DNA of 22,967 nt from a bacterium. GTDB lineage: Bacteria > Planctomycetota > J058 > JAJDCP01. Every line of letters starts with the position of its first letter. Positions within the stretch are counted from its first letter, which is position 1. Of the stretch, positions 3,305-22,967 are shown piece by piece. Position numbers and translations under genes: made by a program. Under the pieces are notes generated by a model. That model saw only the letters and a list, made by a program, of their open reading frames with translations. It was not told the DNA's origin and searched no databases. Location of the stretch: NCBI GenBank assembly GCA_030428695.1, contig JAUIEM010000130.1, positions 1 through 22,967 of the forward strand. Reading direction: 5' to 3'.

Positions 3305-3954
3305 GCTCCCTCCTTCCGCGCCTTCGGCGCCGGGGTGAAACGACCGAACACGTCGCGGAAGCGGGCGACCACCGCGGCCTTTCCCGCCTCCAGCCAGGGC
3401 CCCGCGCCTCGCAGCGCGCGCAGCGAGGTCATGTCCGCCGCGGTCAGCCCACAGGGCCGGATGCAGGCGAACTCCGCGGGGTCGTTGTCGAGGTTGAGGG
3501 CGAAGCCGTGCCAGCTGACCCAGCGGCGGACCGCGATGCCGATCGAGGCGATCTTGCCCCGGTCGGTCCACACCCCGGTCAGGCCCTCGCGGCGGAAGCT
3601 CGCGACGCCGAGGTCCTCGAGCGCGGCGATCAGCACCCCCTCGAGCTCGCGCAGGTAGCGGCGCAGGTCACGGCCGCGCTCGTCGAGGTGCACGATCGGA
3701 TAGCCGACGAGCTGCCCGGGGGCGTGGTAGGTCGCCTGGCCCCCGCGCTCGATCTCGACGACCGGGACCGTCGGATCGAGCACCGCGTCCGCCTTGCTGC
3801 TGCGCCCGAGGGTGATCACCCGCGGATGCTCGCACAACAGCAGGGTGTCGGGGATCCCGCCCGCGCGCCGCGCCGACAGCAGCTCCTGCTGGAGGATGTG
3901 GGCCGCGCGGTAGTCGAGCAGCCCCTCGTCGCGGACCGCGAGCGGACGGCTCAT
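3301..3954 (-). CDS. lipB: Octanoyl-[acyl-carrier protein]:protein N-octanoyltransferase LipB
   Basis: LipB transfers octanoate from acyl carrier protein to the lipoyl domains of 2-oxoacid dehydrogenase E2 subunits and of glycine cleavage H protein, the first step of lipoate assembly. The 217-residue length fits the family. The diagnostic RGGQATYHAPGQLVGY lies at residues 70-85. The catalytic Lys is K134 in GKIASIG and the catalytic Cys is C168 in IRPCGL, followed by the expected MTSL segment. The start at 3954 overlaps the lpdA stop by 4 bp (ATGA). An upstream in-frame ATG at 4083 would lie well inside lpdA and adds unrelated residues. Adjacency to lpdA makes sense, because E3 reoxidises the cofactor that LipB helps install. 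No lipA is visible in the window. Confidence 0.95.
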   Translation of the reverse strand: MSRPLAVRDEGLLDYRAAHILQQELLSARRAGGIPDTLLLCEHPRVITLGRSSKADAVLDPTVPVVEIERGGQATYHAPGQLVGYPIVHLDERGRDLRRYLRELEGVLIAALEDLGVASFRREGLTGVWTDRGKIASIGIAVRRWVSWHGFALNLDNDPAEFACIRPCGLTAADMTSLRALRGAGPWLEAGKAAVVARFRDVFGRFTPAPKARKEGA

Positions 3955-5330
3955 CGCTTCCGCGGGATGTGCACCGCCATGCCGTGGGCGGCCTCGGCGG
4001 CCTCCATCAGCGACTCGGAGATCGTCGGGTGGGGATGGACCGTCAGCCCGAGGTCCTGGACCTGTCCGCCCATCTCGAGGCACAGGCTGGCCTCCGCGAT
4101 CAGCTCGGCGGCGTGCGGACCGACGATGCCCGCGCCGACCAGGGTGTCGTCATCGGCCCGCGAGACCAGCTTGACCAGCCCGTCCGCCGCGCCCTGCGTC
4201 AGCGCCCGGCCCGAGGCGGCCAGCGGGAAGCGCCCGATGCGCACCTCGATGCCCTGCTCCTTCGCCTCGGCCTCGCTCAAGCCGACAGTCGCGATCTCGG
4301 GGACGGTGTAGACCGCCGCCGGCATCGCCCGCACGTCGTACAGCCCGTCCTTCCCGGCGATGCTGTTGGCGACCAGCAGCGCGTGCTTGGTCGCGCGGTG
4401 GGCGAGCAGCGGCCCGGCGACGACATCCCCGATCGCGTACACCCCATCCCCTGCGCGCAGGTGCTCGTCGACGTCGATGAAGCCGCGCCGGTCGGGGCTG
4501 ATGCCGACGGTGTCGAGGCCGAGCTCTTCGGTATTCGGCCGCCGGCCGACCGCGATCAGGATCGCCTCGGCGGCCAGCGTCAGCTCGCCCTTCGGTCCGG
4601 AGACCTGGAGGAACAGCTCGCCCTCGGCCCGTTCGAGCGCGCTCGCCCGGGTGTCGAGGAGGAACTTCACGCCCTCTTTCTCGAGCTTCTTCTGCAACAC
4701 CTTCGCCAGCTCGGGGTCGGTGCCGACCAGGATGCTGTCGAGGGCCTCGACCACCGTGACCTGGCTGCCGAGCCGCGCGTAGACCTGGCCGAGCTCGAGG
4801 CCGATCACCCCCCCACCGATCACGATCAGCCGGGGCGGCAGGCTGTGCAGCTCGAGGGCCTCGGTCGAGCTCCACACCCCCTCCTCGCCGAAGGGCAGGA
4901 AGGGCAGCTGGATCGGCCGCGAGCCGGTCGCGACCACGATGTTGCGGGTCTCGAGGGTGCGGTCGCCGACCTGGACCCGACCGGGTCCGACGATGCGCCC
5001 GCGGCCCTTGACCACGTCGACCGTCTGGCTCTTCAGCAGGCCGCCGACCCCGCGGGTCAGGCGCTTGACGATCTTGTCCTTCCAGCCCGCCAGCTTCTTC
5101 AGGTCGACCTCGACGTTCTGGAAGGTGATGCCCATCTCCGCCGCCTCGCGGGCGTTGGTCAGCACCTCCGCGGCGTGGATCAGGGCCTTCGAGGGGATGC
5201 AGCCGATGTTCAGACAGACGCCGCCGAGGTCCTTCTCCTCGACCACCGCCACCTTCTGCCCGAGCTGCCCGAGCCGCACGCCACAGGCGTAGCCGCCGGG
5301 GCCCGAGCCGATCACCACCGCGTCGTACAT
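3951..5330 (-). CDS. lpdA: Dihydrolipoyl dehydrogenase (E3)
   Basis: This 459-residue flavoprotein disulfide reductase reoxidises dihydrolipoamide on E2 or H protein with NAD+. The N-terminal FAD site GSGPGGYACG is at residues 8-17. The redox-active disulfide is in GGVCLNIGCIPSKAL near residues 36-50. The NAD site VIGGGVIGLELG is near residues 170-185. The second FAD motif is YAIGDV near residue 300. The C-terminal His-Glu dyad region HPHPTISE is near residue 435. All catalytic elements look intact. A strong ribosome binding site (GGGGAGG) lies about 7 bases before the ATG at 5330. The gene is 45 bp downstream of priA and overlaps lipB by 4 bp. Whether it serves pyruvate dehydrogenase, 2-oxoglutarate dehydrogenase or the glycine cleavage system cannot be told from this window. 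Confidence 0.96.
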   Translation of the reverse strand: MYDAVVIGSGPGGYACGVRLGQLGQKVAVVEEKDLGGVCLNIGCIPSKALIHAAEVLTNAREAAEMGITFQNVEVDLKKLAGWKDKIVKRLTRGVGGLLKSQTVDVVKGRGRIVGPGRVQVGDRTLETRNIVVATGSRPIQLPFLPFGEEGVWSSTEALELHSLPPRLIVIGGGVIGLELGQVYARLGSQVTVVEALDSILVGTDPELAKVLQKKLEKEGVKFLLDTRASALERAEGELFLQVSGPKGELTLAAEAILIAVGRRPNTEELGLDTVGISPDRRGFIDVDEHLRAGDGVYAIGDVVAGPLLAHRATKHALLVANSIAGKDGLYDVRAMPAAVYTVPEIATVGLSEAEAKEQGIEVRIGRFPLAASGRALTQGAADGLVKLVSRADDDTLVGAGIVGPHAAELIAEASLCLEMGGQVQDLGLTVHPHPTISESLMEAAEAAHGMAVHIPRKR

Positions 5331-5375
5331 CCTTCATCCTCCCCTGTGTGAGGCGCGCATGGTACCTCAAACGGG

Positions 5376-7837
<2,462 letters not shown>

Positions 7838-7841
<4 letters not shown>

Positions 7842-9430
7842 TCCTCCGCTTCCCAGCTTTGGCGGAGCAGCGCGGCCTCTTCGCGCAGCGCGTCGCGCTC
7901 CTCCGCGTCGAGCTCGACGCCGAAGCCCTGCTCGAGCGCGTCGAGCGCCTGCTCCTTGTCCCCGAGCGCGATCCAGGTCTGCGCGAGCAGCGTCCGCAGC
8001 GCTACGCTGTCGCCGGTCTTGCGCGCCTGCTCGAGGTACTCGAGGGCGGCGTCGGGGGCACCGCGCCGCAGGGCATTGTTCGCCCCGCTGAGCAGGACCT
8101 CCCCGTCGCTCCTGCCCGTCTCGTCGCCGAGCACGTAGCCGAAGCCGAGGCAGCACAGCACCGCGATCCCGACGATGCCGAAGCGCAGGCGCCGGAAGTG
8201 GCGCACCCAGCCCTGGCGGAAGCCGTCATCGGTCGCCGCGCGCTGCACGAAGTCGCGGCGGCGGTTGATCGAGAAGTGCCGCCAGGAGTTCTTGTCGTTC
8301 GAGCCTCCGGACACGTCGCCGACCGCGAGCAGCGTCTTCTGGTAGAGGTCCGGGTCGTCGACCAGGCTCAGCCCGACCAGGTCGGCCTCGAGCTCGAAGC
8401 GCCGGGAGAGGTAGCTGAACGTCACCAGCCAGACGAGCACGAAGGCGAGGAGGATGCCGAGCTCGATAAAGATGCTCGGGGGCACCTCGGCCCACTCGAG
8501 CAGATGGTCCAGCGGCAGCACGAGGAACAGGAAGGACATCACGTACAGGAGATAGAACAGCGCGTGCTTGCGCAGCACGTGCCCGAGCTCGTGGGCGAAG
8601 ACTGCGACGACCTGGTCGGTGCGCAGCGAGGTCAGCAGCCCGTCGGAGATGAACACCCAGCGCGACCAGCCGGTCGTCCCGGTGACGAAGGCGGTCGACA
8701 GGCGCGCGCCCTGCGTGTCCCAGAGCAGCACGCCGCGCAGGCGCACCCGCAGGCCCTTCGCCATCGCGAGCAGCTCGGAGCGCAGCGGCCCCTCGGGCAG
8801 GGCCCGGCTCGGGAAGACGTAGCGCAGCACCAGCGGGAAAAGGAGGTACATAGCGACGATCAGCACCGCGGCGGCGAGCACGTGCAGGCTCTCGAAGCAG
8901 TCGAGCAGCATGCGCAGACCCGGCTGCTCGAACAGCGACTCCCCGACGTACAGGGCCACGGCCAGGGCGGCGGTGGTGCCGACCACCCGCAGACGCAGGC
9001 CGGTGTACTGCACCATCGACGGCTTCGGCTGCCAGAAGAAGGTCGCGAGGCGGAAGGAGCCCGCCGCCGCCCCGATCGAGCCCGAGACGAAGGGCGTCAG
9101 CCACAGCGCCTCGCGCAGGCCGCTGATCCCGAAGCTGCTCTCGTTGACCGCCGAGATCCAGCCGAACACGCCGACCAGCAGCCCGAACAGCAGCAGGTCG
9201 AGGGAGCGGCACAGGCGCAGGAGGAAGACCCGCCGCCGCTCGAAGGCCTGGACCTTCTGCCCGGGCCGATGCAGCACGGCGCGGGTCGCCAGCCGCCCGC
9301 ACAGGAAGCCGAACAGCAGCACGACCAGCGGCGCGAGGACGAGCCAGCCGCCGATGTCGACCAGCGGTGCCTGCGGCAGCACCGCGATCAGCACGACCGC
9401 GAGGATCAGGCGGATGACATCGCCGAACAT
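7838..9430 (-). CDS. M48-family membrane zinc metalloprotease with C-terminal TPR-like tail
   Basis: This 530-residue integral membrane protease resembles the Ste24/HtpX (M48) group. Hydrophobic segments cover about residues 5-45, 75-95, 110-130, 150-163, 185-205, 290-310 and 320-342. The zinc site is HELGH at residues 280-284, with the third ligand in EAD at 348-350, as the family requires. A further hydrophobic segment near 425-440 (FGIVGIAVLCCLGFGYVLG) is followed by about 80 soluble residues with TPR-like repeats (NALRRGAPDAALEYLEQA, then AQTWIALGDKEQALDALEQ). That tail is not part of the basic M48 fold and may dock partners. M48 enzymes degrade or process membrane proteins. The gene lies 40 bp downstream of the small lipoprotein gene and ends in a 4-bp overlap with the possible priA TTG start. 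Confidence 0.88.
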
Positions 9431-9470
9431 GCAGTCCCGTCCTTCCGCCTGTTTCCGCCCCGGGCCTCGT

Positions 9471-9977
9471 TCAGGGGCGTCCGTGCAGCGCGCGCTGGTG
9501 CAGCGCGAGCAGCACGTGTTCGAACTTCGTGAACAGGACCTGCCCCGCGAGCGGCAGCCGGTCTTTGCGGATGGAGTAACGCTCGCCCGGCAGCTCGACC
9601 TCGACCGAGCGGGGAATCTCCAGGTCCGGATCGCCCGCCGTCAGCTCTCCCTCGAAGCTCCGCAGGTTGTCCTCGACGTACTGCACGAGCTCGCCCATCG
9701 TCTCGGGGCTGATCAGCCGCGACTGCGAGGTCGGCCGGTTCGTCCGTTCGCGCTGGCCGACGATCAGCTCCGAGCTGGTCGAGGTCTCGACCTGGTACAC
9801 GCCTTCGGGCAGCATGCTCGCGTCGCAGGCGAAGTTGATCGTGAACCGGAACTTGCTCCCGGTCTCATCCTCACTGACCGTGTGATAGACGATACGGCTC
9901 TGTTCGAGGGCGCGCGGGCTCGCGGTCGACGCGCATCCGATCAGCAGCGCCGCGCCGCACAGGGCGATCCACCTCAT
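9471..9977 (-). CDS. Small predicted lipoprotein of unknown function
   Basis: This 168-residue protein has a signal peptide ending in the lipobox LLIGC, with Cys15 as the lipid attachment site. I do not recognise the mature domain. It has beta-rich segments (FRFTINFACD, GVYQVETSTSSELIVGQ), a central helix (PETMGELVQYVEDNLRSF) and a C-terminal segment (RLPLAGQVLFTKFEHVLLALHQ). The ATG at 9977 overlaps the CobW-family gene stop by 4 bp, and the M48 protease gene follows after 40 bp. It is therefore probably co-transcribed with both, and is likely an outer-surface or periplasm-facing envelope protein. Confidence 0.75.
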   Translation of the reverse strand: MRWIALCGAALLIGCASTASPRALEQSRIVYHTVSEDETGSKFRFTINFACDASMLPEGVYQVETSTSSELIVGQRERTNRPTSQSRLISPETMGELVQYVEDNLRSFEGELTAGDPDLEIPRSVEVELPGERYSIRKDRLPLAGQVLFTKFEHVLLALHQRALHGRP

Positions 9978-10975
9978 GCTCCGACCTCCGACGGTTCCGC
10001 CCGCCGCTCCGGCGGACTCTCCGACCGCGCGCGCTGGCAGGCGAGGAAACCCTCGCGCAGCGCGGTCATCGGCAGGTCACGGCCGATCAGCACCAGGCGG
10101 GAGACCCGCTCGGCGCCCGCTTCCCAGACATCGCCCAGGCCGAGGTCGACCAGCTCGTGCACGCCCTGGACGAGCAGCCGGCGCTCCTGCCCGGCGAGCT
10201 CGAGGAAGCCCTTGTAGCGGTACAGCTCATCCCGGAAGGCCTTGATCATGCCCTTCAGCCAGCCGTTGAGCGCGACCGGGTCGAGGGGCAGCCGCGACTC
10301 GAGCACGAAGCTCTGCAGCATCTCGTCCTGCTTGTGATGATGGTGGTGGGCGACGGGCGGCGGCGGCTGGTCGAGCTCGTAGGCGTTGAGCTCGAGCAGC
10401 TCTTCGGCCGGCACCCGCGCCTCGCGGCAGGGCAGCACAGGGGCCTGGGGGTTGATGCTCGCCAGCCGCGCGGTCAGCCGCGCCAGGGCCGCCTCGCCGA
10501 CCAGGTCGCGCTTGTTGAGCAGCAGCCTGTCGCCGAAGGCGATCTGCTCGACCAGCTCGAGCTCGCTGTCGAGGTGCTTCTCGAGGTGGAAGGCGTCGAC
10601 GACCGTCACCACACCGTCGAGGCGGAAACGCTCGCTGACCGAGGGCTCGCCGAGGAAGGTGCGGACCAACGGCCCGGGCTCGGCGATGCCCGTCGTCTCG
10701 ACCAGCACCCGGTCGAAGCGCTCGGCCTGCAGGGCCAGCCGGGCGAGGGCCTCGACCAGGTCGGAGCGCACCGTGCAGCACAGGCAGCCATTGCTCAGCT
10801 CGACGATGCCGTCGTCGTTGGTCACCAGCAGCTCGTTGTCGACCCCGACCGCCCCGAACTCGTTGACGATCACCGCGAAGCGCACGCCGAGGGCGGCGCT
10901 GCTCGCGAGCAGGTGGTTGACCAGCGTGGTCTTGCCGGCGCCGAGGTAGCCGCTGACCAGCGTGACGGGAATCAC
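9974..10975 (-). CDS. CobW/COG0523-family GTPase (putative metallochaperone)
   Basis: This is a 333-residue G3E GTPase. The P-loop GYLGAGKT is at residues 9-16 and the metal-binding CxCC motif (GCLCC) at 63-67. The switch-like ETTGIAEP is at 93-100 and the NKRD guanine-specificity motif at 154-157. A His run (HHHHH, residues 210-214) lies after a proline-rich linker, typical of COG0523 proteins that buffer or deliver zinc or cobalt. The CobW C-terminal domain follows (YRYKGFLELAGQERRLLVQGVHE). The start is a GTG at 10975 with a GGAGAGGG ribosome binding site. Subfamilies cannot be separated by eye, and the lack of cobalamin genes makes a zinc role more likely than cobaltochelatase support. 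It heads the long minus-strand gene run and overlaps the lipoprotein gene by 4 bp. No Zur box was recognised. Confidence 0.88.
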   Translation of the reverse strand: MIPVTLVSGYLGAGKTTLVNHLLASSAALGVRFAVIVNEFGAVGVDNELLVTNDDGIVELSNGCLCCTVRSDLVEALARLALQAERFDRVLVETTGIAEPGPLVRTFLGEPSVSERFRLDGVVTVVDAFHLEKHLDSELELVEQIAFGDRLLLNKRDLVGEAALARLTARLASINPQAPVLPCREARVPAEELLELNAYELDQPPPPVAHHHHHKQDEMLQSFVLESRLPLDPVALNGWLKGMIKAFRDELYRYKGFLELAGQERRLLVQGVHELVDLGLGDVWEAGAERVSRLVLIGRDLPMTALREGFLACQRARSESPPERRAEPSEVGA

Positions 10976-13314: not shown

Positions 13315-14796
13315 TCACACCCCCGCCAGGTGCCGGTACAGCTGCACGTACTTCGGCCCCTGCCGGTCCCAGGAGTAGTCCTGCGCCATCCCGTTCTGCA
13401 CCAGCCGGTGCCACAGCTCCGGGGAACGGAAGGTCAACAGGGCGCGCTTGAAGGCCCAGGTGAAGCCCGCCGAGGTGAAGTGGTCGAACAGGAAGCCGGT
13501 GCCCTCGCCGGTCGCGGCGTCGAACTGCTGGACGGTGTCGGCCAGGCCGCCGGTCTTGCGCACGACGGGGACGGTCCCGTAGCGCAGGCTGTACATCTGG
13601 TTGAGACCGCAGGGCTCGTACAGGCTCGGCATCAGGAAGATGTCCGCCCCCGCCTCGATCCAGTGCGCGAGCTTGTTGCTGTAGCCCTCGTAGTAGCAGA
13701 CCCGGCCGGGGAACATCCGCTGCAGGTCGCGGAAGTCCTTCTCGAGCGAGGGCTCGCCGCTGCCGAGCACGCACAGCCGCATGTCGACCTGGCGCAGGAA
13801 GCGCGGCAGCGGATCGAACAGCAGGCGGAAGCCCTTCTGCGCGGTCATGCGCGAGACCATGCCGACGACCGGCACGCGGCCGGCGACCGGCTGCAGGCCC
13901 ATGTTCTTGAGCAGCGCGTCGCGGCAGCTGCGCTTGCCGGCCAGGTCGTCGGGGCCGTAGCGCGCCGGCAGGTAGGCGTCGTGGCGCGGGTCCCAGTCGC
14001 CGTAGTCGACGCCGTTGACGATGCCGTACAGGTCATGCTGCCGCGCCCGCAGGTAGCCCTCGAGGCCGACGCCGAAGTCGGCGGTCTGGATCTCCCGGGC
14101 GTAGGTGCGCGACACCGTGCTCAGGCCGCTCGCGTAGAGGATGCCGGTCTTGAGGAAGTTCAGCCGGCCCTTCTTGAGGTCGCCTTGATGCAGCAGCTTG
14201 CGCGCCTTCTCGAGGCCGAGCACCGGCACGCGCTCGGCGGGGGTGGTGCCCTGGTAGCCGATGTTGTGGATGCTGAGCAGGCTTTTCGTGCCGCGGAACA
14301 GCTGGTCCCAGGCGTAGTCGTGCTTCAGCAGCAGCGGCATCAGCGCCGTGTGCCAGTCGTTGCAGTGCACGACGTGGGGAGCGAAGCGCAGCCGCTGGCA
14401 GCACTCGAGCACTGCCCGGGTGAAGAAGGTAAAGCGCAGGTCGTCACGGCCCCCGGGCAGGTAGATGCCGTCGTGGTCGAACAGGTCGTGGTGCTCGATG
14501 AAGTAGACGTCGCAGTCGCTGTTCGGCAGCTTCCCGACCAGCCCCGCGCAGCCCCAGGCCCGCCCGCCGAAGGAGAACTGCACCGAGCGCAGGGCCTCGT
14601 GGCGACGCAGCTCGATCTGCCCCTTGACCCGGCGGTACAATGGGAGAAAAATCCGGACGTCGTGGCCCGCACGGTGCAGGTAGCGTCCGAGGGCCGCAGC
14701 CACGTCGGCGAGCCCGCCGGTCTTGGCGAAAGGAGCGAGCTCCGATGCGAGCAGGCAGATGCGCAACGGCTCGGACGTCTGCGAAGTCTCCGTCAT
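13315..14796 (-). CDS. glgA: Glycogen (starch) synthase
   Basis: This 493-residue GT5-family enzyme adds glucose from ADP-glucose to alpha-1,4-glucan. The N-terminal ADP-glucose motif ELAPFAKTGGLADV has Lys25 in the KTGG loop. The GT5 signature HCNDWHTALMPLLL follows near residue 148, then SIHNIGYQG, and YGIVNGVDYGDWDP near 260. The C-terminal Rossmann domain carries the nucleotide-binding segment SLYEPCGLNQMYSLRYGTVP with the conserved Glu and the second KTGG (RKTGGLADTV). Everything needed for catalysis is present. The only ATG close enough to the fold is at 14796 (14796-14794), with GGGGAC about 6 bases upstream. That codon overlaps the start codon of the divergent ATP-grasp gene, so any glgA promoter must lie inside that gene. 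No other glycogen genes are present. Confidence 0.95.
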   Translation of the reverse strand: MTETSQTSEPLRICLLASELAPFAKTGGLADVAAALGRYLHRAGHDVRIFLPLYRRVKGQIELRRHEALRSVQFSFGGRAWGCAGLVGKLPNSDCDVYFIEHHDLFDHDGIYLPGGRDDLRFTFFTRAVLECCQRLRFAPHVVHCNDWHTALMPLLLKHDYAWDQLFRGTKSLLSIHNIGYQGTTPAERVPVLGLEKARKLLHQGDLKKGRLNFLKTGILYASGLSTVSRTYAREIQTADFGVGLEGYLRARQHDLYGIVNGVDYGDWDPRHDAYLPARYGPDDLAGKRSCRDALLKNMGLQPVAGRVPVVGMVSRMTAQKGFRLLFDPLPRFLRQVDMRLCVLGSGEPSLEKDFRDLQRMFPGRVCYYEGYSNKLAHWIEAGADIFLMPSLYEPCGLNQMYSLRYGTVPVVRKTGGLADTVQQFDAATGEGTGFLFDHFTSAGFTWAFKRALLTFRSPELWHRLVQNGMAQDYSWDRQGPKYVQLYRHLAGV

Positions 14797-16018
14797 GACC
14801 GTCCCCGCGGTGTTCGTCGCCCCGTTCCTGTTGCCGAGCACGCTGCGCTTCGTGCGCGCGGCGGCGGCGGTCGAGGGCGTGCGGATCGGCCTGGTCAGCC
14901 AGGACAGCGCCCGCTCCATCCCCCCGGATCTCAAGGCAGCTCTGGCGGCACATTACCAGATCCCCGACGGGCTGAACACCGCGCACATCGTGTCCGCGGT
15001 GCGCAAGCTCTCCGGCCAGCTCGGAGGCTGCGCGCGGCTGATCGGCATGCTCGAGCAGCTGATGGTCCCGCTCGCCCGGGCCCGGGCCGAGCTCGGCCTG
15101 GCCGGGCTCAGCGTCGAGGCCGCATTGAACTTCCGCGACAAGTCGCGCATGAAGCGGGTGCTCGCCGCCGCCGGCCTGCCCTGCGCCCGCCACCGGCTGG
15201 TGCGCTCCGAGGAGGAGCTGCGGGCCTTCGTCGCCGAGGTCGGCTTCCCGATGATCGTCAAGCCGCCGGCCGGCGCCGCCGCGAAGGACACCTTCCGGCT
15301 CGACTCGGCCGAAGAGCTGGCCGGCTACCTCCGCCACTTCCGGCCCTCGGCACAACGTCCGGCCCTGTTCGAGGAGTTCATCTCCGGCGAGGAGCACTCC
15401 TTCGACGCGGTCTGCATCGGCGGGAAGTGCGTCTGGGCCTCGCAGTCGCGCTACCACCCGAGCCCGCTCGAGGTGATCCAGACGCCCTGGATCCAGTGGT
15501 GCGTGCTGCTGCCTCGCGAGCTCGACGCGCCGCGCTTCCGCAGGATCGCCGAGGTCGGCCCCGCGGCCCTCGCGGCCCTCGGCATGCGCGAGGGCTTCAG
15601 CCACATGGAGTGGTTCCACCGGCCCGACGGCTCGGTCGCGGTCTCCGAGGTCGGCGCGCGGCCGCCCGGCGCGCAGTTCATGAGCCTGATCTCCTACGCC
15701 TACGACCGCGACTTCTACAGGGCCTGGGCGCGCCTCGAGCTGCTCGGTGCCTTCGACCCGCCGACCCGCGACTATGCCGTCGGCGCGGCCTTCCTGCGCG
15801 GCCAGGGCCGCGGGCGCGTCAAGGCGGTGCACGGCCTCGACCTCGCCCAGAAGGAGCTCGGGCCGCTGGTCGTCGAGGCGTCGCTGCCGCGGCCCGGCCA
15901 GCCCGCCGGCACCGGCTACGAGGGCCAGGGCTACGTGATCCTGCGCGACCGCGACACCGCCCGGGTCGAGGCGGCCCTGTCCCGCCTGATCCGGCTGGTG
16001 CGGGTCGAGCTCCACTGA
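14795..16018 (+). CDS. ATP-grasp domain protein, first of a tandem pair
   Basis: This 407-residue ATP-grasp enzyme would join a carboxylate, activated as acyl phosphate, to an amine or thiol; its substrate is unknown. The N-terminal preATP-grasp domain starts VFVAPFLLPSTLRFVRAAA. The ATP-binding Lys region is FPMIVKPPAGAAAKDTF near residue 155. The hinge Glu segment is ALFEEFISGEEHSFD near 190. The metal-binding Glu residues are in SHMEWF (near 270) and SEVGARPPG (near 285). The layout resembles the carbamoyl-phosphate synthase/PurT/BtrJ-type branch. Its neighbour, 12 bp downstream, is a paralogue with the same HMEWF and E(V/I)GARPPG motifs. The ATG at 14795 has no clear ribosome binding site and overlaps the glgA start codon. 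A GTG at 14810 is an alternative. Confidence 0.85.
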   Translation: MTVPAVFVAPFLLPSTLRFVRAAAAVEGVRIGLVSQDSARSIPPDLKAALAAHYQIPDGLNTAHIVSAVRKLSGQLGGCARLIGMLEQLMVPLARARAELGLAGLSVEAALNFRDKSRMKRVLAAAGLPCARHRLVRSEEELRAFVAEVGFPMIVKPPAGAAAKDTFRLDSAEELAGYLRHFRPSAQRPALFEEFISGEEHSFDAVCIGGKCVWASQSRYHPSPLEVIQTPWIQWCVLLPRELDAPRFRRIAEVGPAALAALGMREGFSHMEWFHRPDGSVAVSEVGARPPGAQFMSLISYAYDRDFYRAWARLELLGAFDPPTRDYAVGAAFLRGQGRGRVKAVHGLDLAQKELGPLVVEASLPRPGQPAGTGYEGQGYVILRDRDTARVEAALSRLIRLVRVELH

Positions 16019-16030
16019 GTTGAGGACGTG

Positions 16031-17248
16031 ATGAACATCGTCTTCCTGTCCCCCGGCTACCCCGCCGAGATGCCCCACTTCGTGCGCGGCCTGGCCGCCG
16101 TCGGCGCCAAGGTCCTCGGGGTCGGCGACCAGCCCCCCGCGGCCCTGCCGCAGCTCGCCCGCGACCACCTGCACGACTACCTGCAGGTCGAGTCGCTGTG
16201 GGCGGCGCCGCAGCTCGAGAAGGCGTTGCGGGCCTGGCTGCGCGGCCGCTCCATCGACCGCCTGGAGTGTCTGTGGGAAGCGGGGATGACGGTCGCCGGG
16301 CAGCTCCGCGAGGCCTTCGGGCTGCCGGGTCTGGGCGTCGAGGCGACGCGCCGGGTGCGCGACAAGGGCGTGATGAAGGAGGTGCTGACCGCGGCCGGCG
16401 TGCGCACCCCGAAGAACGCCCGGGCGGCGACGGTCAAGGAGATCGAGGCAGCCGCCGAGCGCATCGGCTACCCGCTGATCGTCAAGCCGATCTCCGGCGC
16501 CGGCTCGATGCACACCTTCCGGGTCGACGACGAGGCCCGGCTCGCGCAGGTGCTGCCCGAGCTGCGGAACGTCGCCGAGGTCAGCGTCGAGGAGTGCATC
16601 GAGGGCCGGGAGCTCACCTACGACACCGTCATCGCGGGCGGCGCGATCGCCTACTACAACATCGCCTGGTACCGCCCCCAGGTGCTGATCGCCCGCAGCG
16701 AGGAGTGGATCAGCCCGCAGACCGTCACCCTGCGCCACCCCGAGCAGCCCGAGCTCGCGCCGGGGCGGAAGCTCGGCGAGCAGGTGATCGCGGCGCTCGG
16801 GCTGACGAGCGGCTTCACCCACATGGAGTGGTTCCTGACCGCGGCCGGCGAGGCGGTCTTCGGGGAGATCGGCGCGCGGCCTCCCGGCGGGCGCTCGGTC
16901 GACATCATGAACTACGGATGTGACATCGACCTGTTCCAGGGTTGGGCGGAGGCGGTCTGCAAGGGCAGCTTCTCGCAGCCGGTCGAGCGCCGCTACAACG
17001 CCGCGGTGGTCTTCAAGCGCGCCCGGGGGCAGGGGCGCATCCGCCGGGTGGAGGGGCTGCGGGGAATCCTGTCGCGCTACCGGGAGCACATCGTCTGCGT
17101 CGACCTGCTGCCCATCGGGGCCCCGCGCCGCAACTGGAAGGCGACCCTGGTCTCGGACGGCTACCTGATCGTGCGCCATCCGCATCTCCCGGCGACCCTG
17201 GAGATGGCCGACCGCATCGGGACCGACCTGGCCCTGTACGCCGGCTGA
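16031..17248 (+). CDS. ATP-grasp domain protein, second of a tandem pair
   Basis: This 405-residue paralogue of the preceding gene starts at the ATG at 16031, with GAGG five bases upstream; the GTG just before it (16028) is less likely. The N-terminal domain is MNIVFLSPGYPAEMPHFVRG. The ATP-binding segment is YPLIVKPISGAGSMHTF near residue 148, with EECIEGRELTYDTV near 185. The metal ligands are in THMEWF (near 263) and GEIGARPPGG (near 279). All expected ATP-grasp residues are present, so both paralogues look active. The two proteins may form a heterodimer or catalyse successive ligations; this is inferred from 12-bp spacing and shared architecture. The substrate is not predictable from sequence. 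Linkage to glgA might hint at carbohydrate or storage metabolism, but is not evidence on its own. Confidence 0.85.
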   Translation: MNIVFLSPGYPAEMPHFVRGLAAVGAKVLGVGDQPPAALPQLARDHLHDYLQVESLWAAPQLEKALRAWLRGRSIDRLECLWEAGMTVAGQLREAFGLPGLGVEATRRVRDKGVMKEVLTAAGVRTPKNARAATVKEIEAAAERIGYPLIVKPISGAGSMHTFRVDDEARLAQVLPELRNVAEVSVEECIEGRELTYDTVIAGGAIAYYNIAWYRPQVLIARSEEWISPQTVTLRHPEQPELAPGRKLGEQVIAALGLTSGFTHMEWFLTAAGEAVFGEIGARPPGGRSVDIMNYGCDIDLFQGWAEAVCKGSFSQPVERRYNAAVVFKRARGQGRIRRVEGLRGILSRYREHIVCVDLLPIGAPRRNWKATLVSDGYLIVRHPHLPATLEMADRIGTDLALYAG

Positions 17249-17901: not shown

Positions 17902-17918
17902 CCGCACAATGGGTGCGG
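17902..17918. other. Hairpin just upstream of the kinase ribosome binding site
   Basis: CCGCAC (17902-17907) pairs with GTGCGG (17913-17918) around the loop AATGG. The hairpin lies 6 bases before the GGAGG ribosome binding site (17925-17929) and 15 bases before the ATG at 17934. It overlaps a CACAAT sequence (17905-17910) that could be a -10 element, so it may be an operator or a leader structure. Confidence 0.35.
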
Positions 17919-17933
17919 AAGCCCGGAGGCAGC

Positions 17934-20597
17934 ATGTCCGCCCCCTCCTACGACGAAGTCTGCGAGTGGCTGCGCGCCCGCAAGGACGCGCGCCCGTCCT
18001 CGCTGGTCGGCTCGAGCGAGCGCATCGCCCGCAGCCTGCTGACCCCGTCCCGGGAGGGCAGCTCCGCGCAGCTCGCCTCGCTGATCGGCGCGCTGCGCTC
18101 GACGCCCCGGGCCGGGGAGAAGGCCTTCGAGCCGCCGGCCTCGGGCGCGGTCGAGGCCTCGCTCTTCCCCGGCCGGGCCGCTTCGCGCGGCGCCGCCCGG
18201 GACGCGACCCCGGGCTGGCTCGAGGACGGCTACGAGCTGCTCGGGGTGCTCACCGGCGGCATGGGCGAGCTGTTCGTATGCTTCGACCAACACAACGGCC
18301 TGCCCTTCGTGCTCAAGACCTTCCGCGACGACGTCTTCGCCGGCAACGCCCGGCTGCTGCCCGCCTTCGTCAAGGAGCTGACCTTCTGGTGCGGCCTGCG
18401 CCCCCACCCGAACATCGTCCGCGCCTACGGCAGCCGCATGCTCGACGACAAGCCCCACCTGTTCCTCGAGCTGGTCTGTGGGCCGACGCTGGCCGAGGTG
18501 CTGCGCGAGGGCACGCTCGGGCCGCCGGACGCGGTCGAGCTCGGCCTGCAGGTGTGCGCGGCGCTGCAGCACGCCTGCAGCCACTCGGTGCACTTCGTCC
18601 ACGGCGACCTCAAACCCTCCAACCTGCTGCTCGCGGGGGAGCAGGCCAAGCTGACCGACTTCGGCCTGGCCCGCACGGCCGGGGTCGGCGGCCCGGACCG
18701 GGCGAGCGGCACGCCGCCGTACATGGCGCCCGAGCTGTGGCGCGGCGAGGAGGTCACCGAGAAAGCCGACGTCTACGCCCTCGGGGTGCTGTTGTGGGAA
18801 GCGCTCGCCGGCCGGCGTCCCTTCCCCGGCAAGGACCTCCGCGCCCTGCGCGCGGCCCACCTCGAGCAGGCGCCGCCGCCGGTGCGGCTGCCGCGGGAGT
18901 GGAGCCCGCTCGGCTTCACGCTGCTGAGCTGCCTGGCGAAGAACCCCGCCGAGCGGCCGCCGGTCGAAGAGCTCGCGAAGGCCCTCGGCAGCCTGCGGAA
19001 GACCTCCGACACGCGGCGCTTCCGGACCTCCAGCGGCACCTTTCAGCGGCTGCGCAAGGCCGTGCAGCGCTGGCTGCCGGAGCGCCAGGTCGTGCTGCCC
19101 GAGCTCGGCAGCCAGCCGAGCAGCGGCGTCGAGGCGACGATCCGCGCCCGCCTCGTGCGCGTCCTCTCGCAGCCCCTCGACGCCCGAGGTCTCGACGCCC
19201 TGTGCGCGCTGTCCCGGCTGCGGGGCCGGCACGCGCGGGCCTTCGGTGAGCTTCCGCCGCTGGCCTCCAAGGTCCCGGCCGCCCTGGAGGAGCGCGCGGA
19301 CCTGCGCGAGCTCTACCTGCCCCGCGGAGACTTCTCCGGCCGCCGCCTGCGCGGCTCCAACCTGCTCGGGGCCGACCTGCGCGAGAGCCGCTGGCGGGAG
19401 GCGCAGCTCCTGCGCGTGTCGTTGCGAGATGCGGACCTGCGCGGCGCCGATCTGCGCGAGGCGGCCCTGGTCGAGGTCGACCTGCAGGGCGCCGACCTGC
19501 GGAAGGCGCGCCTGGCGGGCCTCGACCTGCGCCGTTGCTCCCTGCCCCGCGCCCTCGAGGGAGCCGACCTGCGCGGCACCCGCCTCGACGGCTGCGACCT
19601 GCAGGGCGCCCGCTTGACCGACGCCGACGTGCGGGAGGCGCGCCTGGCGGGGGCCGACCTGCGCCGCGCCGACCTGCGCGGCGCCCGCCTCGAAGGGGTC
19701 GACCTCGCGACGGCCCGGCTCACCGGTGCGAACCTGCGCGGGGCGCTGATCGACCCGGCGACGACGCTGCCCGCCGACGTCGCCGCCGACCGCCTCGGTC
19801 CCGACCCCCTGCTCGGCACGCTGCTGGCCGGGCGCTTCTTCGTCAAGCGGCGCCTCGCCCGCAACGAGGTCGGGGCGCTCTACCGGGTCGTCGACGAGCA
19901 GGGGGCGGAGCACGCCCTGCGCTGGGTCCCGACCGGCCGTTACCTGCGCAGCTACCCGACCCGGCGCACCCTGACCCACAAGGACGCGGTGCGCCGCCCC
20001 CTCGGGGCGCTGCTGTCCCTGCGCCATCCGCGCCTGGTGCCGCTGCACGAGGCGGGGATGTGCGCGGAGGGCAGCTTCCTGACGATGGAGCACGTCCACG
20101 GGAGCAGCTTCGCGACCCGGATCGCCTCCGGTCCGGTCGAGGTCGACCGCGCCCTGGCCTGGACCCGCCGCCTGCTCGAGGGGCTGGCGGTGCTGCACGG
20201 CAACAGCATCGCCCACCTCTGCCTCAGCCCGCGCACGGTGCTGCTCGGCGAGGGCGGAGTGCGGCTGGCCGGCCTCGGCTGCGGGCCGCTCTTCCAGTGG
20301 GCCGACCGGCCGCCGTACTACCTCGCCCCCGAGCAGCTGATCGGCCAGGGCACCGGGCCGCGCAGCGACGTCTTCAGCGTCGGGGTGATCCTCTGGGAGC
20401 TGCTCGCCGGGCGCGTCTTCGAGAGCCGCAAGCGGCGCTTCGCGCCGAGCCTGTTCGACCCCGTCCCCGACCTCTCCCTGCCCGCGCTCGACAGCCGCGA
20501 CCGCCTGCGCGGCCTGCTCGCCCGGATGCTCGAGGTCGATCCGACCCGGCGGCCGGCCTCGGCCCGCCACGCCCTCGAAGGGCTCGCGCGGATCTGA
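17934..20597 (+). CDS. Ser/Thr protein kinase - pentapeptide repeat - pseudokinase fusion
   Basis: This is an 887-residue cytoplasmic protein with no membrane segment. The ATG at 17934 has GGAGG four bases upstream. The first kinase domain covers about residues 98-345. It has a Gly loop (GVLTGGMGELF), Lys128 in VLKTF, a catalytic loop HGDLKPSN at 223-230 with Asp225, DFG at 242-244, and PYMAPELW. It is therefore complete, but is a non-RD kinase (HGD, not HRD). Residues about 455-605 are pentapeptide repeats, with many A(D/N)LRG/ADLRE units, predicted to form a right-handed quadrilateral helix. Residues about 630-887 are a second kinase fold that has lost catalysis. Lys is Arg663, the loop reads HLCLSPRT (761-768, Asp replaced by Cys763), and DFG reads GLG (780-782). 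An FHA-domain gene lies 2.2 kb away on the same strand. Confidence 0.92.
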   Translation: MSAPSYDEVCEWLRARKDARPSSLVGSSERIARSLLTPSREGSSAQLASLIGALRSTPRAGEKAFEPPASGAVEASLFPGRAASRGAARDATPGWLEDGYELLGVLTGGMGELFVCFDQHNGLPFVLKTFRDDVFAGNARLLPAFVKELTFWCGLRPHPNIVRAYGSRMLDDKPHLFLELVCGPTLAEVLREGTLGPPDAVELGLQVCAALQHACSHSVHFVHGDLKPSNLLLAGEQAKLTDFGLARTAGVGGPDRASGTPPYMAPELWRGEEVTEKADVYALGVLLWEALAGRRPFPGKDLRALRAAHLEQAPPPVRLPREWSPLGFTLLSCLAKNPAERPPVEELAKALGSLRKTSDTRRFRTSSGTFQRLRKAVQRWLPERQVVLPELGSQPSSGVEATIRARLVRVLSQPLDARGLDALCALSRLRGRHARAFGELPPLASKVPAALEERADLRELYLPRGDFSGRRLRGSNLLGADLRESRWREAQLLRVSLRDADLRGADLREAALVEVDLQGADLRKARLAGLDLRRCSLPRALEGADLRGTRLDGCDLQGARLTDADVREARLAGADLRRADLRGARLEGVDLATARLTGANLRGALIDPATTLPADVAADRLGPDPLLGTLLAGRFFVKRRLARNEVGALYRVVDEQGAEHALRWVPTGRYLRSYPTRRTLTHKDAVRRPLGALLSLRHPRLVPLHEAGMCAEGSFLTMEHVHGSSFATRIASGPVEVDRALAWTRRLLEGLAVLHGNSIAHLCLSPRTVLLGEGGVRLAGLGCGPLFQWADRPPYYLAPEQLIGQGTGPRSDVFSVGVILWELLAGRVFESRKRRFAPSLFDPVPDLSLPALDSRDRLRGLLARMLEVDPTRRPASARHALEGLARI

Positions 20598-20603
20598 GGC
20601 CTG

Positions 20604-22238
20604 TCAGGGCCCGCGCAGGGCCGGCCCGTGATGGTGGATCCAGCCGTCCTCGTCGGCGATGACCGCCCGCAGCAGCTCCGGCCGCGCCTCGACGACCTCG
20701 AGGGCCTCGGCGTGCGAGAGATGCGCGGGCAGCCAGGCCTCGATCACCGCCCGCCGTGCCCGCCAGCTCCCGTCGTCCCGCGCCGGGCGCATCAGGTTGC
20801 AGGGCACCTCCTGGCCGAGCAGGACGCAGTCGAAGCCACCGAGCCCGTAGATCGGGATGTTCCCGCCGATGAAGCCGAGGGCGTCGAGGAAGGGCCGGCC
20901 CCGCAGGCTGAGCGGCGCCCGCTCCCGGTACAGGGCGAGCAGCAGCTCGACCCCCGACACGTCGGTGTCCGCGCGGGCCTGCCTCCAGAAGGCGGTGTCG
21001 CGCTGGCGGTTGAACTTGAAGTGCACGGCGAGGAACCAGCGCAGGGCGTCCCACTGGTTCGCCATCACGCGGTTGAGGAGCCGCCGCGCGGTGCCGTCGC
21101 GGCGGTCGCCGGGGAAGCACGCGGTCAGGAGCCGCAGGGCCTGCTCGATCATCACCAGGCCGGACGACTCGAGGGGCTCGACGAAGGCGTAGGCGTTGCC
21201 GATCGCGACCACGTTGCCGCGCCAGCACTCGGCGTGGCGGCCGGAGCGGAAGGGGATCGCGCGGAAGTCCCGGGCCTGCGGGAAGACCGCGTGGATCTCC
21301 GCCTCGGCCTGCCGGTCGTCGCAGCAGGCAGAGCGGAAGACGTAGCCGTTGTGATCCCGATCGCGCTGGGGGATCACCCAGCACCAGCCGTGGTCCATCG
21401 TCTTCGCGGTCGTGAAGGGCTTGATCGCGCCGCCGTGGGGCGCGGTGAAACACAGCGCCCGGTCGGTGGACAGGCTGCTCGCGAAGCTGTGGTACGGGAC
21501 CTTCAGCGTCTTCTCCAGCAGGAAGGAGACGAACCCCGAGCAGTCGATGTAGAGGTCGAAGGCGAAGCGGCGCCCGTCTTCGGCGATCAGGCAGGCGACC
21601 TCCCCCCGCTCGTCGAGCTGCGCCTCCGCGATCCTGCACTCGACCCGACGCACCCCCCGCGCACGGGCGAGGTCGCTGAGAAAGCGCACCAGGCGAACGT
21701 TGTCGAGGTGGTACGCGAAGGAGGTCTGCGGCAGGAAGGAGTGGAAGTCGTCGTCGGCGAAGACCAGCGGCGTCTTCTCGTGCTCCATCAGCAGCGACTG
21801 GATCGTCATCGCGTTGATCGAGCCCTCGTGGCGCAGCGACCCGAGGATGCCGAGGCCGGGCTCCGCCCAGTCGAAGGGCGCGTGGAAGTACCCGCCCGGG
21901 CGCCCCCACTCGAACTTGATGCCCTGCTTCCAGGTCGGCTCGACCGCGCGGTGGAAGTCGACGATGTCGATGCCGAGCTGGACGTGCAGATCGTACAGGA
22001 ACGCGGGCACGGTCGCCTCGCCGACGCCGATCGTCGGGATCGCCGCGGACTCGAGCAGGGTCACCTCGAGATGGGGCAGCCGGGCCTGCAGGAACAGCGC
22101 GCTCAGGTAGCCGGCGGTGCCGCCGCCGAGGATGCCGACGGAGCGGTAGCTGTCCCGGAAGGTCTCCGGGTCGAGCCCGCTCCGGGCGTTGGACTCCGCC
22201 TCGAGCCGCCGCGGCGGAAGGTCGGGCAGGGCTGGCAC
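20604..22238 (-). CDS. Flavin-dependent tryptophan halogenase-family protein, coupled to a peptide gene
   Basis: This 544-residue FAD-dependent halogenase family member would use FADH2, O2 and halide to make hypohalous acid and halogenate an indole ring. Visible motifs are the FAD site GILGGGTAG (35-43) and GVGEATVP (71-78). WKQGIKFEW (103-111) contains Lys104, aligned with the catalytic Lys79 of PrnA. The diagnostic WxWxIP appears as GWCWVIP (284-290), and EPLESSG (354-360) has Glu357, aligned with PrnA Glu346. All catalytic elements are kept. The only plausible start is the GTG at 22238, two bases after the TAG of the upstream 92-residue peptide and without its own ribosome binding site. 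Translation is thus probably coupled. The longer open frame to 22961 overlaps the peptide gene and is not credible. No flavin reductase is nearby. The substrate is inferred to be the peptide. Confidence 0.92.
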   Translation of the reverse strand: MPALPDLPPRRLEAESNARSGLDPETFRDSYRSVGILGGGTAGYLSALFLQARLPHLEVTLLESAAIPTIGVGEATVPAFLYDLHVQLGIDIVDFHRAVEPTWKQGIKFEWGRPGGYFHAPFDWAEPGLGILGSLRHEGSINAMTIQSLLMEHEKTPLVFADDDFHSFLPQTSFAYHLDNVRLVRFLSDLARARGVRRVECRIAEAQLDERGEVACLIAEDGRRFAFDLYIDCSGFVSFLLEKTLKVPYHSFASSLSTDRALCFTAPHGGAIKPFTTAKTMDHGWCWVIPQRDRDHNGYVFRSACCDDRQAEAEIHAVFPQARDFRAIPFRSGRHAECWRGNVVAIGNAYAFVEPLESSGLVMIEQALRLLTACFPGDRRDGTARRLLNRVMANQWDALRWFLAVHFKFNRQRDTAFWRQARADTDVSGVELLLALYRERAPLSLRGRPFLDALGFIGGNIPIYGLGGFDCVLLGQEVPCNLMRPARDDGSWRARRAVIEAWLPAHLSHAEALEVVEARPELLRAVIADEDGWIHHHGPALRGP

Positions 22239-22240
22239 GG

Positions 22241-22519
22241 CTACCAGTTCGGGCCGGGGAACCAGTTCGGGCCGGGGAACTTGCGTCCGCCCGACGCCGC
22301 CTGGTAGACGTTCTGCAGCGCCGAGAGCGTCGCCGCCGTCTTCTCCATCGCCGCGGCGATGTCCTTGAGGTCCCGCGGCCCCAGCGCTCTGTTCTTGTCC
22401 CGCAGGCGCTGCTTCAGGCGCTCGAGGCTGCGCACGCAGCCGCCCTCGATGCCCTCGAACTTCCGCAGGTTGGCGGGTCCGCCGAGCTGCCCTTCGACGT
22501 CGGTCTGTCGATTCTCCAT
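22241..22519 (-). CDS. Putative RiPP precursor peptide with duplicated FPGPNW core
   Basis: This is a 92-residue peptide with start ATG at 22519, a strong GGAGGAG four bases upstream, and a TAG stop. It matches no family I recognise. Residues 1-27 are Gly-rich. Residues 28-76 form a charged amphipathic helical stretch (SLERLKQRLRDKNRAL, DLKDIAAAMEKTAATLSALQ). Then comes a Gly-Gly at 77-78, RK, and two exact copies of FPGPNW (81-86, 87-92) ending in Trp. The plan of helical leader, Gly-Gly and short aromatic tail is that of a ribosomally made, modified peptide. The only Trp residues in the protein are W86 and W92, and the next gene is a tryptophan halogenase. Halogenation of one or both Trp is the natural inference. 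A plain accessory or anchor role for the halogenase cannot be ruled out. Confidence 0.75.
   Translation of the reverse strand: MENRQTDVEGQLGGPANLRKFEGIEGGCVRSLERLKQRLRDKNRALGPRDLKDIAAAMEKTAATLSALQNVYQAASGGRKFPGPNWFPGPNW
22244..22279. repeat. Perfect 18-bp tandem duplication encoding FPGPNW twice
   Basis: On the plus strand the unit ccagttcgggccggggaa occurs at 22244-22261 and again at 22262-22279 without a mismatch. On the minus strand each unit encodes Phe-Pro-Gly-Pro-Asn-Trp. Identity at the DNA level, including third positions, indicates a recent duplication or active homogenisation of the core. Confidence 0.97.
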
Positions 22520-22845
22520 CGTTCTCCTCCAGTCCGCTCCTGGTCGTACCCCTGCAATCCCCGGGTTCTGCGGCGGGAGGGTGATTTTTGGGAAAAGTCT
22601 GCCGCAGACGCCGACGGCGGCCTACCGGATCTGCGCCCGGATCGTGGTGGTGGCGAGGCGAAGCGACCAGCTCCACCAGCGCGAGCCTCTCCATCGTGCG
22701 CGGTGAAGTGCGCGAGCCGCCCCGCACAGGATCCCCAACCCCCGCCGCGACGGAGTATTGCGACGAGGCCATCTGGATGGCGGGGCCCGTACGAGCTACA
22801 ATGGCCGGGGAGTTTCCCCCTCTAGATGGAAGCGCTGGCGAGCCT
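22520..22845. other. Non-coding gap between divergent peptide/halogenase and FHA genes, with a 13-bp palindrome
   Basis: No gene is credible in these 326 bases. A perfect odd palindrome GTCTGC-C-GCAGAC (22597-22609) lies about 80 bases upstream of the peptide ATG, next to an A/T-rich patch (22582-22596), and could be an operator. TACAAT at 22797-22802 may be a -10 element for the FHA gene on the plus strand, without a clear -35. No terminator is expected or seen, because both genes point outward. Confidence 0.45.
22524..22530 (-). promoter_or_regulatory. Strong ribosome binding site of the peptide gene
   Basis: GGAGGAG lies four bases before the ATG at 22519. It is the best ribosome binding site in this part of the window and sets the start of the 92-residue peptide. 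The halogenase that follows has none, so the peptide should be translated in excess over the enzyme, as expected for substrate and catalyst. Confidence 0.8.
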
Positions 22846-22967
22846 ATGGCGAGCATCCAGATTCTCAGCGGCTGCCGTGAAGGACAGGTCCTCGAGCTGC
22901 GTCCGAAACGGCAGATCCTCGGCAACAGCGAAAAGGCCGATGTGCCGATCGGCGAAGGCATCCGGAT
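22846..22967 (+). CDS. FHA-domain protein (partial, runs off right edge)
   Basis: Only 40 codons are present. The frame reads MASIQILSGCREGQVLELR, then PKRQILGNSEKADVPIGEG, which matches the first strands of a forkhead-associated domain (the G..GQ..L pattern, then the G-x-S loop). FHA domains bind phosphothreonine and commonly partner Ser/Thr kinases such as the one encoded at 17934-20597. The conserved Arg of the GR-x-S loop is Asn here (LGNS), which may weaken phosphopeptide binding. An in-frame ATG at 22801 would add 15 residues; the start at 22846 is preferred because FHA homology begins at once. What follows the domain lies outside the window. Confidence 0.75.
   Translation, partial: MASIQILSGCREGQVLELRPKRQILGNSEKADVPIGEGIR

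Follow-up and report, generated by a model that had tools for sequence, protein, structure and literature searches.

A putative precursor peptide gene coupled to a MibH/ChlH-clade flavin-dependent halogenase as a candidate two-gene system for peptidyl-Trp halogenation

The window, that is, the whole stretch of 22,967 nucleotides analysed, carries near one end a two-gene cassette in which a 92-residue peptide gene is followed by a flavin-dependent halogenase gene. Both reading frames are present on the minus strand with a spacing of 2 nt, the catalytic motifs of the halogenase are intact, and the enzyme belongs to the clade of MibH and ChlH. The cassette is RiPP-like, with the halogenase as its only local maturase and a precursor of an undescribed kind, and would constitute a single variant of known RiPP halogenation. 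That the halogenase modifies the adjacent peptide is held with moderate confidence on the basis of adjacency, coupling, Trp placement and the kinship of the enzyme.

The peptide gene and its surroundings

The sequence-only reading had described a 92-residue peptide carrying two FPGPNW units, located 2 nt upstream of the halogenase gene, and the coordinates, the gap, the codon score and the Shine-Dalgarno sequence all agree with that description. The features of the cassette are as follows.

20604..22238, minus strand: flavin-dependent halogenase of the MibH/ChlH clade, 544 aa, GTG start (PF04820, 4e-114; best PDB match 5UAO; tree; 48% identity with ChlH)
22239..22240, minus strand: intergenic gap of 2 nt, TAG-CC-GTG, from the peptide stop to the halogenase start (read from the sequence)
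22241..22519, minus strand: putative precursor peptide gene, 92 aa (ORF with ATG, codon statistics, Shine-Dalgarno; no family or homologue)
22244..22285, minus strand: putative core RKFPGPNWFPGPNW with Trp86 and Trp92 (sequence and exact 18-bp repeat; candidate core)
22286..22519, minus strand: putative leader, residues 1-78, with a Gly-Gly end (sequence and propensity calculation; proposed leader/core boundary)
22526..22530, minus strand: Shine-Dalgarno GGAGG, 6 nt before the peptide ATG (read directly)

The 92-aa ORF is very probably a real gene, since its codon log-likelihood of 47.6 bits, trained on nine window genes, is higher than that of all 410 wrong-frame controls of 92 codons each, taken out of those nine training genes (maximum 36.9 bits, 95th percentile 4.6); true-frame controls (82 windows) ranged from 5.4 bits upwards with a median of 59. 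Its GC content by codon position (0.67/0.48/0.94) is neighbour-like, as the values for the halogenase are 0.70/0.47/0.97. For the halogenase GTG no Shine-Dalgarno sequence of its own was seen, in keeping with translational coupling to the peptide gene. In a protein database where the window halogenase has an entry, the search with the peptide did not recover its own copy from the window, apparently because the gene caller of that database had left it uncalled.

Trp occurs in the peptide only at residues 86 and 92 of 92, both within FPGPNWFPGPNW, so the earlier claim that the only two Trp lie in the repeat and one of them at the very C-terminus was correct. The (FPGPNW)x2 repeat is an exact 18-bp tandem DNA duplication, in frame, at 22243-22280, and the two Trp are therefore not independent and count as one event. 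Under random placement, both Trp would fall within the last 7 residues with p ~0.005, and a single C-terminal Trp, as before the duplication, has p ~0.012. Such duplications are not unique in the window, as a second perfect tandem repeat (15 bp x 3) is present at 7772-7816. The putative core is devoid of Cys, Ser and Thr.

By propensity scales, helix propensity is high for residues 28-76 and very low for residues 79-92, and to that extent the proposed helical leader is borne out. The Gly-Gly that had been noted between leader and repeat is indeed found at 77-78, but two further Gly-Gly are located at 13-14 and 26-27, which makes the pair at 77-78 weak evidence of a cleavage site. An LxxxxL leader motif, considered as a sign of SrpI-like recognition, was present in one copy, yet it also appeared in 62% of shuffled leaders and was discarded.

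The view that no described family covers the precursor was upheld, as the peptide matched nothing in Pfam, NCBIfam, PHROG and PADLOC, leader families included, and had no homologue. Among 5.8 billion proteins, two shared words with it, neither at E<=1; the best PDB match had an E value of 0.24, plasmids yielded no relative and phages a single match at E 0.5. At a threshold of 0.001 the peptide was found in 0 of 334 genomes of the phylum to which L034, a Planctomycetaceae MAG, belongs and in 0 of 177 from the order of Minicystis, empty results that show little in a search with no positive control. The best phmmer E value against 21,257 stop-to-stop ORFs from 90 loci was 3.4. In viral contigs a degenerate DNA pattern for FPGPNWFPGPNW gave 0 matches, and no halogenase relative was recognised among the 15 matched stretches. 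No description of such a peptide/halogenase gene pair was found among the matches listed from open-licence papers. The cassette is known from one copy.

In the surroundings of the cassette, a divergent ORF upstream of the peptide gene is cut by the window end, which lies 448 bp upstream of that gene, and no sigma-70-like promoter was detected in 20400-22967. Downstream of the halogenase lies a convergent kinase gene with its stop at 20597, 6 bp separating the two stops; this gene (17913-20597, plus strand) encodes two kinase-like stretches and pentapeptide repeats in one protein. As previously noted, neither a lanthipeptide enzyme among the 20 window ORFs scanned nor a nitrile-hydratase-like (proteusin) leader in the peptide by Pfam and NCBIfam was found, and the same 20 ORFs contained no recognised YcaO or lasso maturase and no transporter. 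The further statement that no other maturase is present holds for the two-gene unit, which has no maturation gene other than the halogenase; in the wider window, the nearest possible peptide-modifying genes are an ATP-grasp pair on the opposite strand, at a distance of 3.4 kb and beyond another gene, and the nearest peptidase gene is an M48 at 12.8 kb. The tandem ATP-grasp ligase genes (14723-17248, plus strand), the first weakly similar to the C-terminal domain of L-amino-acid ligase, are possibly a peptide-bond-forming pair. For the dihydrolipoyl dehydrogenase encoded at 3951-5330 (minus strand), one relative shares 78% identity (P0122, on a 60,730-bp contig) and the others at most 54% among the 120 listed, one being its own entry. 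The window appears to derive from a poorly sampled lineage, and placement by GlgA, PriA and this dihydrolipoyl dehydrogenase (Lpd) did not decide between phyla.

The halogenase and its clade

All catalytic motifs that had been reported as intact were located, namely GGGTAG at 38-43, PTWK with Lys104, GWCWVIP at 284-290 and EPLESSG with Glu357. Among the 33 PDB sequences matched, 5UAO scored 541.7 bits and the runner-up, the free-Trp enzyme 2WET (Trp 5-halogenase), 221.8. According to PMC12518702, 5UAO is MibH. P0057 from Microbispora corallina, which scored 1209.6 bits against 5UAO, was taken as MibH. Over nearly the full length, the window halogenase shares 49% identity with MibH and 48% with ChlH. 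ChlH is represented by the halogenase of L004 (Lentzea jiangxiensis), whose PTWK at 136-139 agrees with the catalytic Lys139 described for ChlH (PMC12518702).

Substrate-associated motifs were judged by the table in PMC8269204. In the window halogenase, Trp1 reads ATVPAF and Trp2 reads APFDW, a motif also present in MibH and ChlH, and the Trp4 motif of free-Trp halogenases was absent by the patterns tested, which were likewise matched by 0 of the 120 relatives listed. In a rapid tree built from 159 rows (120 proteins from the list of relatives plus 39 hand-picked loci, none of them a free-Trp enzyme, for which the PDB comparison serves as substitute), the window halogenase fell together with P0057 and ChlH inside a clade of 140 rows with an SH-aLRT of 100. 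Its branch is long (1.09) and its exact place within the clade is unsure. The closest database relatives, P0002-P0005, are 50-54% identical, and few genomes carry a halogenase of such closeness: under the E-value limits applied, the numbers were 1 of 392, 4 of 377, 1 of 29, 12 of 183 and 1 of 247, counts that include genomes entered for having a match and that rest on few first-look candidates scored per genome.

Peptidyl Trp is the reported substrate of both ChlH (PMC12518702) and MibH (PMC12518702, PMC12615548). Kinship with these two enzymes, the presence of APFDW, the absence of Trp4 and the leader-binding-like domains fused to relatives (below) together make it quite probable that the window halogenase acts on some peptide.

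Pairing and fusions among related halogenases

The sequence-only reading had set as a test that a Trp-tailed peptide should stand beside related halogenases. By tblastn, 101 halogenase matches with at least 350 bp upstream were collected, corresponding to 87 distinct genes from 78 of the 80 first loci, a set outside which P0002-P0005, the closest relatives, lie. A small ORF preceded by a ribosome site was found upstream in 57 of the 101, and in 12 of them (10 distinct genes) Trp occurred in the last 8 residues. On inspection by eye, these were judged to be either off-frame or the tail of a larger gene, none of them resembling the window peptide, so that a convincing Trp-tailed upstream peptide was found for 0 of the 87 genes and the expectation was in part contradicted. 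The peptide/halogenase pairing is therefore not clade-wide. In a codon-scored search covering 700 bp on the upstream and 500 bp on the downstream side at 56 loci, 12 small ORFs were retained, and none was Trp-tailed with similarity to the window peptide. The closest upstream one, a 90-aa ORF of L032 located 17 nt from the halogenase, was rejected as an equivalent, as it has no terminal Trp and is open to the contig end, and is thus probably the end of a longer gene. The peptide frame, which was expected to be kept in relatives, had no homologue in any collection searched, the DNA of P0002-P0005 being outside the set, and conservation in related clusters, one of the marks of a RiPP precursor, was accordingly not found.

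Families typical of RiPP pathways occur near a minority of the relatives: Lant_dehydr_N 3 times, and YcaO, TfuA, Asn_synthase and Transglut_core3 twice each, in a Pfam neighbour scan that covered 169 of 237 ORFs from 25 of 28 loci, with very long ORFs left out, and that gave the 25 most frequent of 138 and of 159 families. Other neighbours include flavin reductases, transporters and other enzymes, and some contexts do not look RiPP-like, with a ketoacyl synthase beside the L010 halogenase and an AMP-binding enzyme beside that of L041. As RiPP-type families are confined to a minority of neighbourhoods, it is not proven that the MibH/ChlH clade is peptide-only. A sodium/hydrogen exchanger gene is a repeated neighbour of MibH-clade halogenases in actinobacteria, accounting for 5 of 91 and 2 of 78 of the neighbour ORFs scanned (for example L009:4436-5803 and L040:4462-5730).

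Halogenases of 10 of the 80 first loci bear an N-terminal extension of ~230-370 residues, namely those of L015, L017, L018, L021, L022, L023, L026 (two genes, 4497-6887 on the plus strand and 7909-10395 on the minus strand), L031, L047 and L051. The extensions are mutually related, that of L023 most weakly; the profile was built from 7 of the 11 genes, which match by construction, and it recovered those of L017, L018, L021 and L051, the last with extension and halogenase encoded in separate frames. An initial reading of the extensions as PqqD-like had no Pfam support, and NCBIfam pointed to TIGR03882 (TOMM precursor leader peptide-binding protein) instead, matched by 3 of the 7 extensions scanned (second gene of L026, 3e-7; L031, 5e-6; L015, 3.5e-4), all below the curated cut-off of 36.9 bits. 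The extensions of L022, L023, L047 and the first gene of L026 did not match this family in NCBIfam. None of the fused enzymes included in the tree fell within the 140-row clade. The fusion of leader-binding-like domains to relatives as close as these suggests that halogenases around the MibH/ChlH clade commonly have peptide substrates.

The hosts of the fused halogenases comprise Nostoc-type cyanobacteria, Polyangiaceae, Holophagales and a gammaproteobacterial MAG. In L017, two halogenase genes lie side by side (3467-4888 and 4858-7530, both on the plus strand), the second with the fused extension; ORFs of the same layout are present in L015, L018 and L021, and the first halogenase is Pfam-confirmed in L017 only. 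Cupin_8/JmjC-like genes adjoin fused halogenases at L026:6897-7889 (minus strand), between the two, and at L023:3844-4878 (plus strand). A small-ORF conservation search beside cyanobacterial halogenases returned many overlapping and antisense frames, and no literature joining 'halogenase' with 'ocin-ThiF' was found among the matches listed.

Known systems and competing explanations

Hallmarks of lasso peptide pathways are an asparagine-synthetase-like cyclase, a transglutaminase-like protease and a leader-binding partner, and genes for none of these were found among the 20 window ORFs scanned. The lasso peptide chlorolassin from Lentzea jiangxiensis (PMC12518702) is made with a halogenase, ChlH, of the same clade and 48% identity, which according to that account acts on Trp of the linear precursor, the likeness named for the system proposed here. 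In the ChlH locus, a 40-aa ORF with three Trp (L004:3169-3291), presumed to be ChlA, ends ~2.5 kb before chlH and is unlike the window peptide, of which no relative was found in L004.

MibH of NAI-107 (microbisporicin), the best PDB match, shares 49% identity and APFDW with the window enzyme, but its described substrate is the matured lanthipeptide after leader removal (PMC12615548), and no lanthipeptide enzyme was recognised in the window. Lanthipeptides such as NAI-107 and MppE depend on a lanthionine synthetase and a Cys/Ser/Thr core, and the window cassette has neither. The proteusin SrpE from a sponge symbiont resembles the window peptide in its C-terminal Trp, short core and long leader with Gly-Gly, and SrpI brominates the C-terminal Trp, including that of a chimeric core of six residues with Pro-Trp at its end (PMC10858898). 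SrpI is likened here by description only, and SrpE has a proteusin leader and a YcaO partner in that description, whereas the window leader matches no family. Likewise compared by description only, the Moorena halogenase MppI acts on MppE, a precursor with a 77-residue Gly-Gly leader, which is of Nif11 type and accompanied by a LanM (PMC11791876); neither was recognised in the window.

In the proposed mechanism, the two genes would be transcribed as one unit, and the flavin-dependent halogenase would chlorinate or brominate the ribosomally made linear precursor at Trp86 and/or Trp92, within its C-terminal FPGPNW repeats. FADH2 would be supplied by a flavin reductase, and leader removal would presumably follow through a protease, the genes for both lying elsewhere; any role of the product is likewise presumptive. 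The assignment of the substrate still rests, as at the outset, on adjacency, coupling and Trp placement, and has been strengthened by the kinship of the enzyme. The minimal RiPP reading was thus sustained in part: a short ribosomal peptide gene does stand beside a modifying enzyme, and the coupling, the clade and the missing Trp4 speak for it, while the conservation results (0 of 87, no peptide homologue) do not. The adjacent peptide is the best candidate substrate, and the two-gene explanation as a whole appears moderately likely. A bolder version, in which the halogenase is the only and class-defining maturase of a RiPP class whose linear precursor, halogenated at the Trp of tandem C-terminal FPGPNW units, is cut into short hexapeptides, each ending in a halogenated Trp, is doubtful.

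Three other explanations were weighed against the modification of the adjacent peptide. The halogenase could act on free indole, tryptophan or another small molecule, with the peptide unrelated, given that PF04820 includes many free-Trp and indole halogenases (PMC8269204) and that a ketoacyl synthase or an AMP-binding enzyme adjoins some relatives; this is unlikely, as the free-Trp motif is absent, the score of MibH is far above those of all other PDB sequences matched, and no indole-product pathway was recognisable among the window ORFs scanned. It is also unlikely that the enzyme is a peptide halogenase whose substrate is encoded elsewhere, the 92-aa protein being a helper, an escort or an unrelated operon protein. 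The distance of the presumed ChlA gene from chlH indicates that adjacency is no rule of the clade, other members examined have no convincing adjacent precursor, and the 92-aa peptide has no recognisable leader family, but the confinement of its only Trp to a duplicated Pro/Gly-rich C-terminal motif is not obviously something that an escort protein needs.

Finally, an untranslated or decaying peptide ORF beside a halogenase working alone would agree with the failure of every search to return a homologue and with its absence from the window's own predicted proteins, but is very improbable in view of a codon score above 410 of 410 wrong-frame controls, a third-position GC of 0.94, a Shine-Dalgarno sequence at 6 nt, a stop 2 nt before the halogenase start and a duplication that stays in frame. 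Modification of the adjacent peptide by the halogenase is accordingly the reading retained.

There are few peptidyl-Trp halogenases, and they are sought as biocatalysts (PMC12615548); those characterised in the papers cited here operate, as far as these accounts go, inside larger RiPP pathways. If the proposal is true, a halogenase as the only modifying enzyme beside its precursor would represent a very simple natural system for linear-peptide halogenation, and the short C-terminal Pro-Asn-Trp unit may be a recognition element. The cassette further suggests that uncalled small ORFs are worth seeking around MibH-clade genes.
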